The notes below the pieces were generated by a model, which worked only from the letters and a program-made list of their open reading frames with translations, did no database searches and had not been told where the DNA came from. 64,000 bases of DNA from the NCBI GenBank assembly GCA_013359235.1, contig JABWCE010000002.1, positions 1-64,000 of the forward strand, given 5' to 3'. Every line of letters begins with the position of its first letter. Position 1 is the first letter of the stretch. Source of the DNA: Bacteroidota bacterium (GTDB lineage Bacteria > Bacteroidota > Bacteroidia > NS11-12g > UBA9320). Positions 41,519 through 49,644 of this stretch are shown here, in pieces. A program made the translations under genes and the position numbers.

Positions 41519-44500
41519 TTATTTTGAAATTAAATATTTAAGATTAATAATAGTTTGATTTAATTCATAAACTGCATCTGCATAATTGCTATAAACAGTA
41601 GTTGCATTGTTGATCAACATAGTCCATTCCAAGTAATTAATATCTCCATTTTTGAACTGTTCATTGGCAGTTTGGGTAATAGAATTGGCATTTATCAAAG
41701 CATTATCTTCAAAATATTTCACAGTCATTAATTGCGTTTGATAATTTTTAATTGCTGAAATGTATTCTGTTTTAAGTGACAGCAAACCAATTTGATAATT
41801 GCTTTCAGAAATAAGCTCCTGCATTTTGCATGATTTTATTTTTGCTGTATGTGAACTAAAAAAAAGCGGAATTCCAATTCCAAACTGCAAAAAATTAAAT
41901 CGTGATGATTTGTTGTAAAGCATATTGTCAGATCCCATTCCTTGAATTGTAATGCTGTTGTAGCCAAATTGCAGGCTGGGCAATAGTTGTTGTTTATGCA
42001 ATTGTGTGTTAATCAAACTGATTTTCTGTTGCTGTTGCAAAATTTTCAATTGAGGGTGGTTAAAAATTGTTGAGGAATCTAATAGTGCCGTTAATGAAAG
42101 CTTTTTATCAGCTTTTGGTATATAAGCTATATTGGTATTAAGTAGCAATTGAAATTTTAATTTCATTATTTCAATTTCATTTTCAATCTGTTTCAACTGA
42201 ATAAAAATTTGAGATATATGGGTTTCGGCAGTTGATTTTTCTATAATGTTAGACTCACCTTTTGTAAAACGCAATTTAGCTTTTACTAAAAAAGAAGCAT
42301 ACACACTATCGGTTTTTATCAAAATGTTCCTTTTTTCATTTAAATATATCAGGGTGTAAAAAATTTCACTTATTTGTTTTTTTACTTCAGATTCTTTCAA
42401 CTCAATATTTAACAAACTGCTTTTGTAAACCTCGTTGTATAATGTTTTTTGTTTTGCATACACCGTTGGAAAACTTAATGATTGCGAAAATCCAAACGAA
42501 TTGTCTTTATAAATTGAATTAAATTGCCCAAATTGAGCAGTAATTTCAGTTTGCGGAATATCATAAGCTGTGGCTTTGATTTTTTTCTGATATTCGGCAC
42601 AAAGAGATTCATTTTTAATAAGCAGATTATTTTTTAAAGCCGTATCAATTGCAGATTGTAAGCTTATTTCTGTTTGTGCATTTGCTTTTTGAAATGAAAT
42701 AAATATTAAAGCAATGGCTGTTATCACTGTTTTGCTTAGCTTCATTTTTTTTAAGGAAATATTCTCAAATAAAATGTACAACACGGGCAAAACAAAAAGT
42801 GTTAGAAATGTAGCTACCAACAAGCCCCCAATTACAACAGTAGCAAGTGGTCGCTGAACTTCGGAACCGTTTCCGGTGCTTAAAGCCATTGGCAAAAAAC
42901 CTAAAGATGCAACTAATGCAGTCATCAAAACCGGTCTTAAACGTATTTTAGTGCCTAACAATACAATTTTTTTTAAATCAGTTTCGCCATTTTTCTTTAT
43001 CCTGTTAAATTCGGCAATAAGAACAATGCCATTTAAAACAGCAACACCAAATAAAGCTATAAACCCAATACCGGCACTTATACTGAAGGGCATTCCTCTT
43101 AAAGCCAAAAACAATATTCCGCCAATTGCAGAAAGCGGTATAGCCGAATAAATTAGCAAACCTTGTTTAACTGAGCCAAATGCGAAGTAAAGCAGTATGA
43201 ATATCATTAATAGAGAAAGTGGTACAGCAATACCCAATCTCTTTTTTGCAGCTTCCAGATTTTCAAAAGAACCACCATAGGTAACGTAGTACCCCGAAGG
43301 CAGTTGCAATTTTTCATCTACTGCATTTTTTAAATCTTTTACAATGCTTTGCACATCTCTGTCTTTTGCATTAAAACCTACAATAATTCTACGCTTTGCA
43401 TCATCTCTTTGTATCTGGTTTATGCTTTCTTCAATTTCTACATTGGCAACCTGATACAATGGTATTTGTGTTCCATTTGAAGTAGGTATTAATAGATTTT
43501 GAACATCTTCTAAATTTTGCCGCAATTCGCCACTAAGCCTTACTACCAAATCAAATCGTTTTTCATCTTCAAATACTATGCCGCTTGTTTGCCCTGCCAA
43601 TGCAGTGTTTACAACTTTGTTTATGTCAGAAATATTCATACCGTATTGGGCAATAATGCCTCGTTTATATCTTATAATTATTTGAGGTAACCCGTCAATT
43701 GGCTCAACATATATATTTTCTGTTCCATCAATTTTATTTGAAATTTCGCCCAAAATTTTTGAATATTTTGAAAGAGTATCTAAGTTTTCACCGTATATTT
43801 TACATACAATGTCTTGTTTAGAACCGGTCATAAGTTCATTAAAACGCATTGCTACAGGATATTGAAAACTATAAGTAACGCCAGGAACATCCAACAATGC
43901 TTCACTCATTTTAGTTGATAGTTCGTCCCAGGTTTGTGCTGATGTCCATTCAGATTTTTTTTTCAAAATTACCATTAGGTCGGCAGCTTCCATAGGCATA
44001 GGGTCTGTCGGAATTTCGCCACTTCCTACTTTACCAATTACTTTTTCAACTTCAGGAAATTTGTTTTTTAAAATGTGAGAAGCTTTTAGGCAGGCTTCTA
44101 CCGTTGTATTTATATTACTTCCGGTAAGCACTCTTGTTTCTACTGCAAAATCTCCTTCGGGTAATTGAGGAATAAATTCGCCGCCCATTCGGGTAAATAC
44201 AAATACGGCAAAAATCAATAAACTAACGGCAAACAATAATATTGTTTTTGGAAAATTTAATACACGATTCATATTAAGTTGATGATATTTGGTAAAGAAG
44301 TCCATCATCTTATCAGAAAAATTTCTTTTATGTGTAATTTGTTTATTTAAAAACAATGCACTCATCATAGGAACATAAGTAAGCGATAGAATGAAAGCCC
44401 CGAGCAAAGCAAAAGATACAGTTTGAGCCATGGGTTTAAACATTTTACCTTCTATTCCTTCAAGTGTAAAAATAGGGAGATATACAATTAAAATTATTAT

Positions 44501-45859
44501 TTGACCGAAAACTGCACTGTTCATCATACGGCTTGCTGATTGATTTACTTGTACATCCATTTCATTTTGTGTAATTTTAATCATTTTGTTTTTATGCACC
44601 AAATTGATCATTACTGCTTCTACAATAATCACAGCACCATCAACAATCAGACCGAAATCAATGGCACCCAAACTCATAAGATTTCCGCTCACACCAAATA
44701 TATTCATCATTATTACTGCAAATAGCATTGATAAAGGTATGACCGAAGCAACAATAAAACCCGCTCTGAAATTTCCTAGAAATAAAACCAAAACAAAAAT
44801 CACAATCAAAGCTCCTTCAAGTAAATTTTTTGAAACTGTGCCAATAGCGCTGTTTACCATTTTTGTTCTGTCGAGAAATGGTTCAATTACCACACCTTCG
44901 GGTAATGTTTTTTCAATTTGTTTAATTCTTTCTTTAACATTTTTAATTACCTCGCTGCTATTTCCACCTTTCAACATCATAACTACTGCACCTGCTGCTT
45001 CGCCTTCGTCGTTATAAGTCATACCCCCATACCGAATTGCATTTCCAATCCTCACATCTGCCACATCGTTTATCAACAATGGTGTACCGTTGCTGGTATT
45101 TTTAATTACGATGTTTTTAATATCATCAATATTTTCTATCAAACCTTCGCTTCTGATATACAATACTGTTGATTTTTTTTCGATATATGCTCCTCCGGTA
45201 TTTTCATTGTTTTTTTCAAGAGATGCAAATACATCGTTTATTGAAATATTGTATGATTTTAATTTATTGGCATCAACAGCAATTTCATATTGTTTTAGTT
45301 TTCCACCAAAACTACTCACATCGGCAACACCTTTTACTCCCAGCAATTGCCTTCTAACAATCCAATCCTGAATTGTACGCAATTCTGTTGCATCATATTT
45401 TAATTCAAAACCATGTTTTGCACGTATTATGTATTGGTAAATTTCTCCAAGCCCTGTTGTTACAGGTGCCAGTTCAGGAGAACCAAGTCCATGCGGAATT
45501 TGCTGTTCGGCAATTTTTAATCTTTCTGAAACTTGATGTCTTGCCCAGTAAATATCAATATCTTCGTTAAAAACAATTGTAATTAAAGATAAGCCAAACC
45601 TTGAGAAACTTCTTATTTCTTTTAATCCAGGAATATTGCTGTTGGCTTGCTCAATCGGGAATGTGATAAGCCTTTCAATATCTGGTGCACCAAGCGAAGG
45701 TGCAGTAGTAATTACCTGTACTTGATTGTCTGTAATATCTGGTACAGCGTCTATCGGCAATTTTGTAAACTGGTAACTGCCAAAACCAATCAGAGCTATT
45801 ATAAAAAGCCCTATTATGAGTTTGTTCTTTATTGAGAACGCAATTATTTTGTTGAGCAT
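41519..45859 (-). CDS. CusA/CzcA heavy-metal RND pump fused to a TolC-like channel
   Basis: A 1446-residue fusion. Residues 1-1035 are an HME-family RND pump: MLNKIIAFSIKNKLIIGLF start, the proton-relay motif DFGLIVDGAVIIVEA near 402-416, and the second half with LFGVAVLNGIVLIAEFN. Residues 1039-1446 form an outer-membrane efflux domain. Between them sits MKLSKTVITAIALIFISFQ followed by KANAQ, which looks like a signal peptide, and its Met codon at 42745 could even serve as an internal start. Similar fusions are known in Bacteroidota. The pump exports Cu(I), Ag(I) or divalent ions (Zn, Co, Cd); the Asp/Glu relay does not decide which. Confidence 0.92.
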   Translation of the reverse strand: MLNKIIAFSIKNKLIIGLFIIALIGFGSYQFTKLPIDAVPDITDNQVQVITTAPSLGAPDIERLITFPIEQANSNIPGLKEIRSFSRFGLSLITIVFNEDIDIYWARHQVSERLKIAEQQIPHGLGSPELAPVTTGLGEIYQYIIRAKHGFELKYDATELRTIQDWIVRRQLLGVKGVADVSSFGGKLKQYEIAVDANKLKSYNISINDVFASLEKNNENTGGAYIEKKSTVLYIRSEGLIENIDDIKNIVIKNTSNGTPLLINDVADVRIGNAIRYGGMTYNDEGEAAGAVVMMLKGGNSSEVIKNVKERIKQIEKTLPEGVVIEPFLDRTKMVNSAIGTVSKNLLEGALIVIFVLVLFLGNFRAGFIVASVIPLSMLFAVIMMNIFGVSGNLMSLGAIDFGLIVDGAVIIVEAVMINLVHKNKMIKITQNEMDVQVNQSASRMMNSAVFGQIIILIVYLPIFTLEGIEGKMFKPMAQTVSFALLGAFILSLTYVPMMSALFLNKQITHKRNFSDKMMDFFTKYHQLNMNRVLNFPKTILLFAVSLLIFAVFVFTRMGGEFIPQLPEGDFAVETRVLTGSNINTTVEACLKASHILKNKFPEVEKVIGKVGSGEIPTDPMPMEAADLMVILKKKSEWTSAQTWDELSTKMSEALLDVPGVTYSFQYPVAMRFNELMTGSKQDIVCKIYGENLDTLSKYSKILGEISNKIDGTENIYVEPIDGLPQIIIRYKRGIIAQYGMNISDINKVVNTALAGQTSGIVFEDEKRFDLVVRLSGELRQNLEDVQNLLIPTSNGTQIPLYQVANVEIEESINQIQRDDAKRRIIVGFNAKDRDVQSIVKDLKNAVDEKLQLPSGYYVTYGGSFENLEAAKKRLGIAVPLSLLMIFILLYFAFGSVKQGLLIYSAIPLSAIGGILFLALRGMPFSISAGIGFIALFGVAVLNGIVLIAEFNRIKKNGETDLKKIVLLGTKIRLRPVLMTALVASLGFLPMALSTGNGSEVQRPLATVVIGGLLVATFLTLFVLPVLYILFENISLKKMKLSKTVITAIALIFISFQKANAQTEISLQSAIDTALKNNLLIKNESLCAEYQKKIKATAYDIPQTEITAQFGQFNSIYKDNSFGFSQSLSFPTVYAKQKTLYNEVYKSSLLNIELKESEVKKQISEIFYTLIYLNEKRNILIKTDSVYASFLVKAKLRFTKGESNIIEKSTAETHISQIFIQLKQIENEIEIMKLKFQLLLNTNIAYIPKADKKLSLTALLDSSTIFNHPQLKILQQQQKISLINTQLHKQQLLPSLQFGYNSITIQGMGSDNMLYNKSSRFNFLQFGIGIPLFFSSHTAKIKSCKMQELISESNYQIGLLSLKTEYISAIKNYQTQLMTVKYFEDNALINANSITQTANEQFKNGDINYLEWTMLINNATTVYSNYADAVYELNQTIINLKYLISK

Positions 45860-45952: not shown

Positions 45953-46339
45953 TTAAACGATTTTGGGCGGTTGCCAAATATTACTTAAAAATGCAGATTG
46001 TACAAACTTCATCTTGTTTTGAAAAGTTATTTTTGAACATAAGAGAATTGCACAAAAAGATAAAGTTGATTGTGTATTGAGAAAGGTTGTACTATGTACA
46101 GTTTCGCAGTCGTGTGTTTTGAAAGGTAGGTTTTTGTGGTCTTTGTTAGCGTTATTACAATGAGAAGGTTTATCGCTTGTGTAATGTTCTAAAAGAAAAC
46201 TCGATAATGATTCGTTGTGATTTTGATTTTTGTGCTCAAAAAAGTGGTGAATAAGTACAGGTAATTTATATAACTGATGCAATTCTGTATTTGCACTTAG
46301 AAATGAAAAGATGAGCAATATTGCCAATACTTTTTTCAC
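45953..46339 (-). CDS. His/Cys-rich small secreted protein
   Basis: A 128-residue protein with a signal peptide (VLAILLIFSFLSANT), rich in His (HQLY, LIHHFFEHK, LEHYTSD, HCNN, DHKNL, THDCETVH) and with several Cys. I recall similar small proteins, with motifs LPxLxxHFxEH and LPFK, encoded just upstream of CusA-type genes in Bacteroidota, but no function is known. Position 93 bp before the pump start and the metal-ligand composition suggest a periplasmic metal-binding or metal-sensing role. The start is a GTG; no ATG lies in frame nearby. Confidence 0.75.
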   Translation of the reverse strand: MKKVLAILLIFSFLSANTELHQLYKLPVLIHHFFEHKNQNHNESLSSFLLEHYTSDKPSHCNNANKDHKNLPFKTHDCETVHSTTFLNTQSTLSFCAILLCSKITFQNKMKFVQSAFLSNIWQPPKIV

Positions 46340-46461: not shown

Positions 46462-47046
46462 TCAATCAACCCTATTCACTTCAATACTTTTTAACCAATA
46501 AACATGTCTTGGTCCTGTTTTAATATCATTTGTACAAATAAGTATCATATCGCCCTGTGCTTTGATTGGGTTGCCATTTTCTTCAAAAATAACATAAACA
46601 TTTTCACCTGTAGGATTATTAAATATTTCTGCCCAAGAAAAAGTAGCTTTATAATTGTCTGTAGCTCGAGCAACTATATAAAAGTTTCTGTCTTTATGGG
46701 TATGCTGTTTAATTTTAGCTTTATTAAGTATATCTTTTAATAACACACCTTTACAAGATTTATTTTCTTTCATATTTGCTCCGCTTTGACAAACTACCTT
46801 AAAATTTTCTATTGTTGTTACATTCATTTTAATTAAAGAATCAACGGTAAGGATTAAAGATTTTTCAACTTCGCCTATTATTTCTATCTTTTTGCTTATA
46901 TACTTTGCACTATCTTCTTTGTTAATTGGCACAATGCATGCATCATTTTTGTCTTGCATTTTTTTTTGTTTTTTTTCCGAAAAATTACACATGTTAAATG
47001 TGAAAGCAATTGTAATTGCTGTAATAATGATTGTTTTCTTTTTCAT
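46462..47046 (-). CDS. Sulfite-oxidase-fold (molybdopterin-type) lipoprotein
   Basis: A 194-residue exported protein (hydrophobic N-terminus with Cys20, probably lipidated, though the lipobox TFNMC is unusual). Residues 50-194 resemble the oxidoreductase molybdopterin-binding (SUOX) fold. The conserved Cys that ligates Mo falls at VVCQSGANMKENKSCKG (Cys86), followed by VLLKDIL, and the family end is TGPRHVYWLKSIEV. It lacks the dimerisation domain of full sulfite oxidases. It lies downstream of a TonB receptor and a ModE-like regulator, which supports a link to molybdenum or tungsten. Whether it binds cofactor, as an enzyme or a binding protein, is open. Confidence 0.72.
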   Translation of the reverse strand: MKKKTIIITAITIAFTFNMCNFSEKKQKKMQDKNDACIVPINKEDSAKYISKKIEIIGEVEKSLILTVDSLIKMNVTTIENFKVVCQSGANMKENKSCKGVLLKDILNKAKIKQHTHKDRNFYIVARATDNYKATFSWAEIFNNPTGENVYVIFEENGNPIKAQGDMILICTNDIKTGPRHVYWLKSIEVNRVD

Positions 47047-47132
47047 GTTTTTATTATTATTTTTAATGAGTTTTATTTTATGGATTATTAAGTAATGCTT
47101 ATTTTTATATGTTATTTCAAGTTTTAAATCGT

Positions 47133-49145
47133 TTAATTGTGATTATAAAAACGTAGTGTTACAAAAAAGTTTCTACCTTCTTCGGGATAACCTTCAGTCA
47201 ACATATAGTTTTTATCAAATAAATTGTTAACTCCCGTTTCAATATTTATATGTTTCCAAATCTTACCAGATATAATGGTGTTGAATATAGTAAATGCAGG
47301 AGCTTTTGTTCCATAGCTTGTACTGTATCTAAATGAATTGTATTCTGAGTTTACAATTATATTTATTTGTTTAATAGGTTTGTATTGTACATAAGCAAAA
47401 ACTTTTGTACTCGGTACATCTGTAAACAGGATGGTTGGGTTTGTTAAATTATGTCGTTCGATATATGTGTAATTTGCCCCAGTTAAAAGGTTTTTTAAAA
47501 TATCATATTTTGCCGAAAATTCAACTCCTTTAAATTCAGCCGAACCTGTATTTTGCATTTGCGATTTGCCTGGTTGAACATTGCTCACGCTAAGAATGGC
47601 ATTGGTTATATGGCTATAAAAAACAGAAGTCTGAAATGATAAATTTTTAAAAAATTTTGAAATGTATGTTAGGTCAAAATTATCAGAAATTTCGGGGTTT
47701 AAGTCAGGATTAGGAATTGCAGTTCCCATTCTGTATGAATATCGGTCTTTAATTGTTGCAAATCGCGTTTTTCGCGAAGCTGTTGCACTAATTTTGTGAT
47801 TTTCTTTTATATAATAGAATGCACCTAACTGACCATTAAATGCAGTACTGGTAACAGCTTTAGCATAATTAAAAATTTCTTTTGTTGTTGAATTATAATC
47901 TTCAGCTTTTATGTTTTTTCTTGCACTGTAACCTATGCCCGGAATTACAATTAATTTATGATTGATTTTTAATATATCTTCAATTGCAAAGTTTATTGTA
48001 TTGTCTTCAATTTTTCTAACAGGCTCATTAATATTATTTTCTCTATGAATATCTTCTTTAAAATGTGTAGATAGTTTCAATTCATTTTTCTTGAAAATAG
48101 AAGTACCGTATTCAATACTTCCACCGTATGTATAATCATTATACCAACTTTGAAATGAATATGGTTTCTTTTGTGTTGTATATGTAGAATCGTCGTAGCT
48201 ACTCACAGAATTTTTGAAAATATCATAATAAATTCTGCTTTTAATATAGCTATTGTTGTTAAATTTGGTATTTGACAAAAAGTAATAGGTTTCTTTGTTC
48301 CAGAATGGCCATTGCCAATAGCGTGGCTTTGAGTAAAGTGAATTTAATTTATCATCTCCGGCATAAACCGGATTCCCTTTTTCACCTTTTTGCTTGATAT
48401 ATCCCAAAACAAATTCATTCTTTTCATTTGGTGTCCAACCAATTTTTAAATTTGTTTTTTGATCGCTACGATACGAATTTTCTCGGTTTCCACCATTTTC
48501 ATGAGCATGTGGAGTATATTCACCAGACATTATGTATGATTCTCTGTGTAAATATGAAATTCCCCCTTGAACAAAGAATTTTCCAAAGTTATAGCCTACA
48601 TTAATGTTGCCTTTGTAACCATTTGTGTTTATTAAACCTAATGAACCATCATATTCAAACTTCTTATAAGGTTTACGAGAAATCAGGTTAATTGTTCCAC
48701 CAAGCGAATTTGGCCCATAAAGCATTGAAGTAAAACCTCTCGAAACATCTATTGCAGATAAATCAAAAGTAGTAAATCTTGCCAAATCCACATAACCATC
48801 GTATGGTACATAAACCGGAACGCCATCCATATATACCGGAACTGCACGCAAATCAAAGCCTCTTATTGATACCATTGACTCGTTTCTTGTACCTGATGAA
48901 GTAAGAAAAACACCCGGCAGCATATTTACCGAGCGTGAAACTTCAAATCTGTTTTGTGTTTCCATATTCTCTTGAGTTATTCTATCTGTCATTTCATTTT
49001 TTGGGGATGCAGAAATTGTTACTTCGCCAAGCTGAAAAATTTTGCTCGAAAAAGAATCTGTGCGATTAATGTTTGTTGTGTCTTTCTTCTGTGAATAAGC
49101 TACGAATGATAAAATACTTGTTACAATTAATAATTTAATTTTCAT
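47133..49145 (-). CDS. TonB-dependent receptor, possible Mo/W uptake
   Basis: A 670-residue outer-membrane receptor. The signal peptide precedes a TonB-box-like LGEVTISASP. The plug has MLPGVFLTSSG, MVSIRGFDLRAVPVYMDGVPVY and the closing SMLYGPNSLGGTINLISRKP. A 22-strand-type barrel ends in FFVTLRFYN with a terminal aromatic region. It takes up a scarce solute using TonB energy. Co-location with a ModE-like regulator, a candidate ModE operator in its promoter and a SUOX-fold lipoprotein suggests a molybdate, tungstate or related metal complex as substrate. Sequence alone resembles siderophore/vitamin receptors, so this is inference. Confidence 0.85.
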   Translation of the reverse strand: MKIKLLIVTSILSFVAYSQKKDTTNINRTDSFSSKIFQLGEVTISASPKNEMTDRITQENMETQNRFEVSRSVNMLPGVFLTSSGTRNESMVSIRGFDLRAVPVYMDGVPVYVPYDGYVDLARFTTFDLSAIDVSRGFTSMLYGPNSLGGTINLISRKPYKKFEYDGSLGLINTNGYKGNINVGYNFGKFFVQGGISYLHRESYIMSGEYTPHAHENGGNRENSYRSDQKTNLKIGWTPNEKNEFVLGYIKQKGEKGNPVYAGDDKLNSLYSKPRYWQWPFWNKETYYFLSNTKFNNNSYIKSRIYYDIFKNSVSSYDDSTYTTQKKPYSFQSWYNDYTYGGSIEYGTSIFKKNELKLSTHFKEDIHRENNINEPVRKIEDNTINFAIEDILKINHKLIVIPGIGYSARKNIKAEDYNSTTKEIFNYAKAVTSTAFNGQLGAFYYIKENHKISATASRKTRFATIKDRYSYRMGTAIPNPDLNPEISDNFDLTYISKFFKNLSFQTSVFYSHITNAILSVSNVQPGKSQMQNTGSAEFKGVEFSAKYDILKNLLTGANYTYIERHNLTNPTILFTDVPSTKVFAYVQYKPIKQINIIVNSEYNSFRYSTSYGTKAPAFTIFNTIISGKIWKHINIETGVNNLFDKNYMLTEGYPEEGRNFFVTLRFYNHN

Positions 49146-49171
49146 GTTTTATTTATTTTTTATGATTATTT

Positions 49172-49195
49172 CGATATGTTTTGTAATGAATAGCG
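49172..49195 (-). promoter_or_regulatory. Candidate ModE-type operator
   Basis: The minus strand reads CGCTAT, 12 bases, ATATCG. These are inverted CGnTAT half-sites spanning 24 bp, the same half-site and spacing I recall for the E. coli modA operator. It sits 27 bp before the TonB receptor start and 14 bp after the regulator stop. Confidence 0.55.
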
Positions 49196-49208
49196 ATTGT
49201 TAAAAAAA

Positions 49209-49556
49209 TTATAGTTTAATCTTGCTTGCTTCTTGTTTTATATAAAATTCAATTTTTTCCTGAAGTTCATTGAAAGCCTTAATTGTTTTTAACCCTGCCT
49301 CAGTAACTATTGCACCTCCGCCACTTTTTCCTCCAAGATGTTTTACTACAAAAGGAAATGCTGAACGTTGGTTCATCTCATTTACCATTTGCCAGGCTTG
49401 ACGATATGACATTTTCATCTCTTTGGCAGCTTTTGCAATAGAACCTGTTGTGTTTATTCTTTCAAGTAGTTCTACACGACCAATTCCAAGCAGCTTTTCT
49501 TCTCCCGCAAAAAACCAAATTCTGAATTTAACATTTATTATTTTATTATTTGTCAT
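49209..49556 (-). CDS. ModE-like winged-helix regulator
   Basis: A 115-residue protein consisting of the N-terminal DNA-binding part of ModE. The HTH is LLERINTTGSIAKAAKEMKMSYRQAWQMVNEMN, followed by the characteristic GGKSGGGAIVTEAG wing. The molybdate-binding Mop domains of the 260-residue E. coli protein are absent, so the ligand must be sensed in another way or the protein is a constitutive repressor. The ATG at 49556 is preferred over TTG at 49559. It is the first gene of the group with the TonB receptor and the SUOX-fold lipoprotein. Confidence 0.85.
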   Translation of the reverse strand: MTNNKIINVKFRIWFFAGEEKLLGIGRVELLERINTTGSIAKAAKEMKMSYRQAWQMVNEMNQRSAFPFVVKHLGGKSGGGAIVTEAGLKTIKAFNELQEKIEFYIKQEASKIKL

Positions 49557-49559
49557 CAA

Positions 49560-49577
49560 TATGCTTTATAAAACATA
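49560..49577. promoter_or_regulatory. 18 bp near-palindrome at regulator start
   Basis: TATGCTTTATAAAACATA reads the same on both strands except for one symmetric pair. It lies 4 bp before the regulator ATG, where an autoregulatory site could be. AT-rich palindromes are common, so the evidence is weak. Confidence 0.3.
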
Positions 49578-49644
49578 CTGCAAAAAAAAGTTTTTTTATA
49601 ATAGGTATATTATGATTTTTGTCATTTTTTATTTTAATTATAAA

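Follow-up and report, generated by a model that had tools for sequence, protein, structure and literature searches.

How trace molybdenum crosses the outer membrane has so far hardly been addressed. The ModE-ModABC and MolABC systems, which take up molybdenum and share their type of ModE operator with the locus described here, act at the inner membrane. A review of molybdenum uptake and molybdenum enzymes mentions neither TonB nor porins (PMC7759655), and no TonB receptor for molybdenum was found in the open-licence papers searched; an earlier description may exist elsewhere. An outer-membrane step for molybdate has also been proposed for T6SS-ModA-IcmP of Pseudomonas aeruginosa, but the description of IcmP is that of a metalloproteinase in the outer membrane and not of a TonB receptor (PMC8602904), and that system has no SUOX-fold or ModE-linked unit. 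In the 64,000-nucleotide stretch of a Bacteroidota genome analysed here (the window), a ModE-like regulator, a TonB-dependent receptor (TBDR) and a small lipoprotein with a sulfite-oxidase (SUOX) fold lie together, which raises the question of whether they form such a step. A sequence-only reading had grouped the three genes as a possible outer-membrane uptake system. Here, we find that the three genes recur together across bacterial groups, near genes of molybdenum metabolism and near molybdenum switch sites, which suggests that it is probably a molybdenum-regulated uptake unit and a dedicated import route for molybdenum across the outer membrane. TonB-dependent metal uptake is of a known kind; a molybdenum-controlled receptor with a SUOX-fold partner is new to the literature searched.

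Gene organization

All three genes lie on the minus strand in the order modE, TBDR, lipoprotein, with intergenic gaps of 63 bp and 86 bp. The regulator (49209-49556; ATG at 49556, stop at 49209) has 115 aa counted from the ATG and scores 83.4 bits (E 1e-23) against TIGR00637 (ModE_repress), which is below the curated cut-off of 98.5, and 65 bits against PRK10676. It had been read as lacking Mop domains, and indeed the protein stops after its HTH domain, with no match to Mop (TIGR00638) in the regulator or anywhere in the genome by profile search. HTH-only ModE proteins are already known (PMC545781). The receptor (670 aa; 47133-49145) carries the motif RNESMVSIRGFDLRAVPVYMDGVPVYVPYDG and matches the Plug domain PF07715 (70 bits) and the barrel domain PF00593 (100 bits); its structure model is of low confidence, with barrel strands visible and the plug not modelled. 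No close TBDR paralogue was found in the 2.65-Mb genome, the next match scoring 29.6 bits. The lipoprotein (194 aa; 46462-47046), with Cys20 as its lipidation site, was assigned from its match to PF00174 (Oxidored_molyb; 30.8 bits against a gathering score of 24), from alignments and from a structure model searched with Foldseek. Cys86, already picked out in the sequence-only reading, is seen in VVCQSG.

Co-occurrence of the trio

With the lipoprotein as query, the collection yielded 45 loci, almost all under Bacteroidota titles. A ModE gene is present in 31 of them, the window-type TBDR in 21 and a second, unrelated TBDR of 853 aa in 12; three loci have both receptors. The predominant order is ModE-TBDR-lipoprotein, found in several Bacteroidota lineages, and several other loci end at a contig edge; the Flavobacterium units form an island flanked by leuS and by ftsX-uppP-truB-pyrH-frr, and one trio (L014) belongs to Flavobacterium johnsoniae strain CI04. 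As an unbiased check we used 393 Bacteroidota genomes, in which the SUOX-fold gene is present in 24 of the 28 with a close TBDR versus 14 of the 365 others (Fisher test, 1e-24, a value that is too small because the genomes are related). Where both are present, the pair lies within 300 bp in 16 genomes, within 9 kb in seven and on two contigs in one. The co-occurrence spans several families and the receptor-SUOX pair extends to another phylum; many of the loci from Flavobacterium and from genome family f19 (apparently Chlorobiaceae) are related and hence non-independent. Exceptions are some Flavobacterium with the lipoprotein alone or with the unrelated 853-aa TBDR, and four genomes (G239, G042, G057 and G275) with the TBDR and no SUOX-fold gene. 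The sequence-only reading had made its proposal hinge in part on the trio occurring together elsewhere; neighbourhood comparison finds this co-occurrence to be strong and, with the conserved gene order, the grouping is not due to chance.

Pairs in which a lipoprotein gene comes directly after that of a TBDR are familiar in Bacteroidota, as in BtuB-BtuG, HmuR-HmuY and SusCD, but the SUOX fold, the predicted ModE control and the proposed molybdenum cargo set the present unit apart. None of 37 other genomes of the source family, six of them from the same genus, has the lipoprotein, so the locus is patchy in its spread and probably moves horizontally.

Operator sites

Abutting the modE start codon, a palindrome search found a ModE-type operator at 49557-49580 (CAGTATGTTTTATAAAGCATATTG as read on the minus strand), and this site is the sole exact match to NTATGNNTTATAANNCATAN in the 2.65-Mb genome. 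We defined ModE-type palindromes as TATRT-N8-AYATA with at most one mismatch and a dyad of at least 8/12, at -250 to +10 of a start. Such sites precede 17 of 20 unit starts, against 2 of 230 starts of other ORFs nearby, a comparison in which the Bacteroidota operator variant had first been spotted in the loci that were later scored and some unit starts were set by hand. Unit starts L004, L083 and L099 fail the strict test, and one of the two control positives is a modD-like gene (identified by reading). In the window the site lies at the modE start; in f19 and P. aeruginosa it is the TBDR that such a site precedes. The published E. coli ModE consensus is CGNTATATA-N6-TATATANCG (PMC545781), which the sites found here match. 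Together with the neighbouring molybdenum genes described below, these operators lend support to the regulation by molybdenum that had been predicted for the trio.

The canonical ModE box was not found in the Flavobacterium loci. There (L016-L042), a dyad TACKTA-N8-TAMGTA lies 57-198 bp upstream of 13 of 25 modE genes, and these account for 13 of all 14 matches in 486 kb. It shares the geometry of the ModE box and differs in its half-sites, and may be the counterpart of that box in Flavobacterium or else belong to the promoter of the divergent leuS gene.

The window's genome, in which no Mop domain was found, encodes two HTH-only ModE proteins, a kind for which no molybdenum-sensing domain was found. 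The second (111 aa; L049:8193-8528) lies within a nar/Moco operon that also holds a weaker ModE-like dyad between moaA and moeA (L049:6984-7007). A few weak ModE matches occur among phage-collection records.

Molybdenum-gene neighbourhoods

Orthologues 38-67% identical to the window TBDR sit beside molybdenum genes. In f19, a TBDR with 38-43% identity is followed by a SUOX-fold protein without a lipobox, and the pair adjoins nifE-nifN-nifB, anf-type nitrogenase genes, modE or modA (names from reading translations, with the nitrogenase family checked separately). By the same kind of reading, the trio lies downstream of a Moco operon, moeA-mobA-moaD-moeB-moaE-moaCB, in L007 and L011, and the lipoprotein gene lies near nar genes in L012 and L013. 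The TBDR and SUOX-fold genes of P. aeruginosa overlap and face moaA-narIJHG, and in Caballeronia the SUOX-fold gene stands alone upstream of nifQ and a ModE-like gene. The receptors of Bacteroidota, of f19 and of P. aeruginosa/E. coli each form a well-supported group in the tree, and the plug motif RNE...RGFD...YVPYDG is common to all three. Alphaproteobacterial relatives (30-34% identity) lack YVPYDG, with no visible molybdenum neighbours in those examined.

The E. coli homologue (33% identity over 95%, with the same motif) is the last gene of an operon (L104:1368-7842) that looks like the prrA-modD-yc73-fepC cluster, and 2122 of the 5426 complete genomes of this species (39%) carry the receptor. 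Like the trio, this operon has a ModE-type dyad, here a strong one 48 bp before its first gene; unlike the trio, it encodes ModD (504 bits), a methyltransferase and an ABC transporter of the FecCD type, and has no SUOX-fold partner. The dyad conflicts with the description of the cluster as possible iron uptake. More generally, a ModE site might be found at a receptor whose cargo is iron or some other nutrient that molybdenum enzymes need. A rival reading is that the receptor takes up an iron or mixed-metal chelate, for example a catecholate binding iron and molybdenum, with ModE control because nitrogenase and nitrate reductase are iron-hungry. The description of the E. coli cluster speaks for this, general profile models make the TBDR family look like siderophore and heme receptors, and FecCD-type ABC genes adjoin the E. 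coli, Paracoccus and Bartonella homologues. However, ModD and a ModE-type site head the E. coli operon, neighbours elsewhere are molybdenum-specific (modA, modE and Moco genes; nifQ for the SUOX-fold gene), and the literature found gives no evidence of the E. coli cluster moving iron. We consider an iron or mixed-metal cargo distinctly unlikely.

Substrate-binding proteins encoded near these receptors were also considered. The one beside the P. aeruginosa pair was rejected as a molybdenum binder because it is of the Lys/Arg/Orn type, and the E. coli protein was rejected as MolA, its best PDB match being 4pag. The Bartonella protein gave only a partial MolA match in the PDB search.

The lipoprotein and its cargo

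A sequence search of the PDB with the lipoprotein gave no usable match. Its structure model (mean pLDDT 71, with a higher core) matched YedY/MsrP, sulfite oxidases and PruR in Foldseek (1xdq at E 2e-6), with PruR closest in size and the best fold match by target length (TM-score 0.65-0.72). Cys20 is invariant across 20 relatives, and the lipobox itself is degenerate.

PruR is likewise a small secreted SUOX-fold protein, in which a tryptophan replaces the molybdenum-ligand cysteine and which binds monapterin and signals via DcpA (PMC13259868). By analogy, the unit might import a pterin, molybdopterin or finished Moco, with the lipoprotein holding the pterin as PruR holds monapterin. The predicted fold similarity fits this reading, as does the presence of MoaC in all 17 non-f19 genomes that carry the SUOX-fold gene. 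On the other hand, the binding site of PruR lacks the cysteine and, by its description, does not offer enough room for Moco and probably cannot hold the cofactor (PMC13259868). The window lipoprotein differs from PruR in having Cys86, which is kept together with the window-type receptor, and in its partner, a TBDR with a ModE-type regulator; no dcpA-type coupling was recognised in the gene lists inspected by eye, the neighbour being the TBDR. ModE-type control and the neighbouring modA, modD and nifB point to the metal.

Evidence against a pterin cargo comes from f19, where MoaC is missing in 8 of 21 genomes and seven of these eight also lack MoeA. These seven genomes are 94-100% complete, keep the SUOX-fold gene and carry nitrogenase-family genes; a close TBDR is present in six of the seven, in one of these six (G337) with an in-frame stop. 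The nitrogenase-family profile, PF00148, also matches chlorophyll-synthesis proteins, an ambiguity eased by nifENB adjoining the pair in several f19 loci. The pair hence seems independent of Moco synthesis by its host. The window's own genome has both MoaC and MoeA. We regard pterin, molybdopterin or Moco import as unlikely.

Sulfite oxidase and YedY (MsrP) share the fold and the cysteine position with the lipoprotein, and its PF00174 domain and the place of Cys86 at the molybdenum ligand would suit a small periplasmic Moco enzyme with the TBDR as an unrelated neighbour. However, those enzymes have about 260-460 aa versus 194 aa, the adjacency to the TBDR is non-random and the molybdenum-ligating cysteine, present in the window, is not conserved across the SUOX-fold gene family, which is kept in genomes without Moco-synthesis genes. 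In Flavobacterium, all 16 loci that have the window-type TBDR keep Cys86, and 8 of the 9 with only the other TBDR have lost it (Fisher test, 8e-6, uncorrected for kinship and with L026, VVCQTG, counted as Cys). Loss was seen in L029-L035, L037, L041 and L042 and in a distant group (L089 and L092-L096). We regard a Moco enzyme beside an unrelated TBDR as extremely unlikely.

Taken together, retention of the pair without MoaC and MoeA and loss of Cys86 alongside the other TBDR argue for molybdenum (or tungsten), and not molybdopterin, as the most likely cargo, and for a lipoprotein that probably binds this cargo or hands it over in concert with the window-type receptor. Of the substrates first suggested for the system, molybdopterin is thus disfavoured; for the lipoprotein, a binding role fits, and a molybdenum-cofactor role is weakened by the loss of Cys86 in several lineages. 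As to the metal, ModE and molybdenum-binding proteins generally discriminate poorly between molybdate and tungstate, which would allow tungsten as the physiological cargo. The neighbours are molybdenum systems (nif, nar and Moco synthesis), though, and the window's genome itself has a nar locus as well as two genes whose products contain a Molydop_binding domain, so that we hold tungsten in place of molybdenum to be very unlikely.

Proposed route

Our working model for molybdenum import, built from sequence comparison, starts with low cell molybdenum, on which the HTH-only ModE would come off the palindromic operator that abuts its start codon, and the trio would be expressed. The TBDR would then drive molybdenum across the outer membrane as molybdate or, more likely, as a larger molybdenum complex, with tungstate possible. 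Beside the receptor, the SUOX-fold lipoprotein, which seems to descend from Moco proteins without being an enzyme itself, would hold or hand over the cargo, helped by Cys86 in the version partnered with the window-type receptor. A separate transporter would finally move molybdenum across the inner membrane. The window's genome encodes MoaC and MoeA, and ModB was not found in it or in four genomes of the genus Flavobacterium (g15). A TauE/SafE permease gene (L049:8532-9263, G000:C28) lies between the second modE and moeB inside the Moco operon, and L007, L008, L092 and L097 have look-alikes next to Moco genes or genes of the trio (from reading translations); where ModB was not found, such a permease may be the inner-membrane molybdate carrier.

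In its widest form, the proposal is of a widespread ModE-controlled, TonB-dependent molybdenum system of the outer membrane that spans Bacteroidota, Chlorobi-type nitrogen fixers and P. aeruginosa and takes in the E. coli prrA operon. Its molybdenum carrier would be a converted Moco-enzyme fold with a cysteine that co-evolves with the receptor; for this whole we see the case as evenly balanced. If true, the receptor family would give bacteria that fix nitrogen or respire nitrate their missing molybdenum step. It would also suggest a new label for the 'iron uptake' cluster of E. coli, the receptor of which occurs in more than a third of the complete genomes, and would explain the role of some small 'molybdopterin-dependent oxidoreductases'.

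Downstream of the trio, a CusA/CzcA RND gene and a small protein (45953-46339) were considered as unit members and set aside, as they were matched in no related locus. At 41519-45859 of the window, a CusA/CzcA-type RND permease is fused with a TolC-type outer-membrane efflux domain in a single 1446-aa frame.
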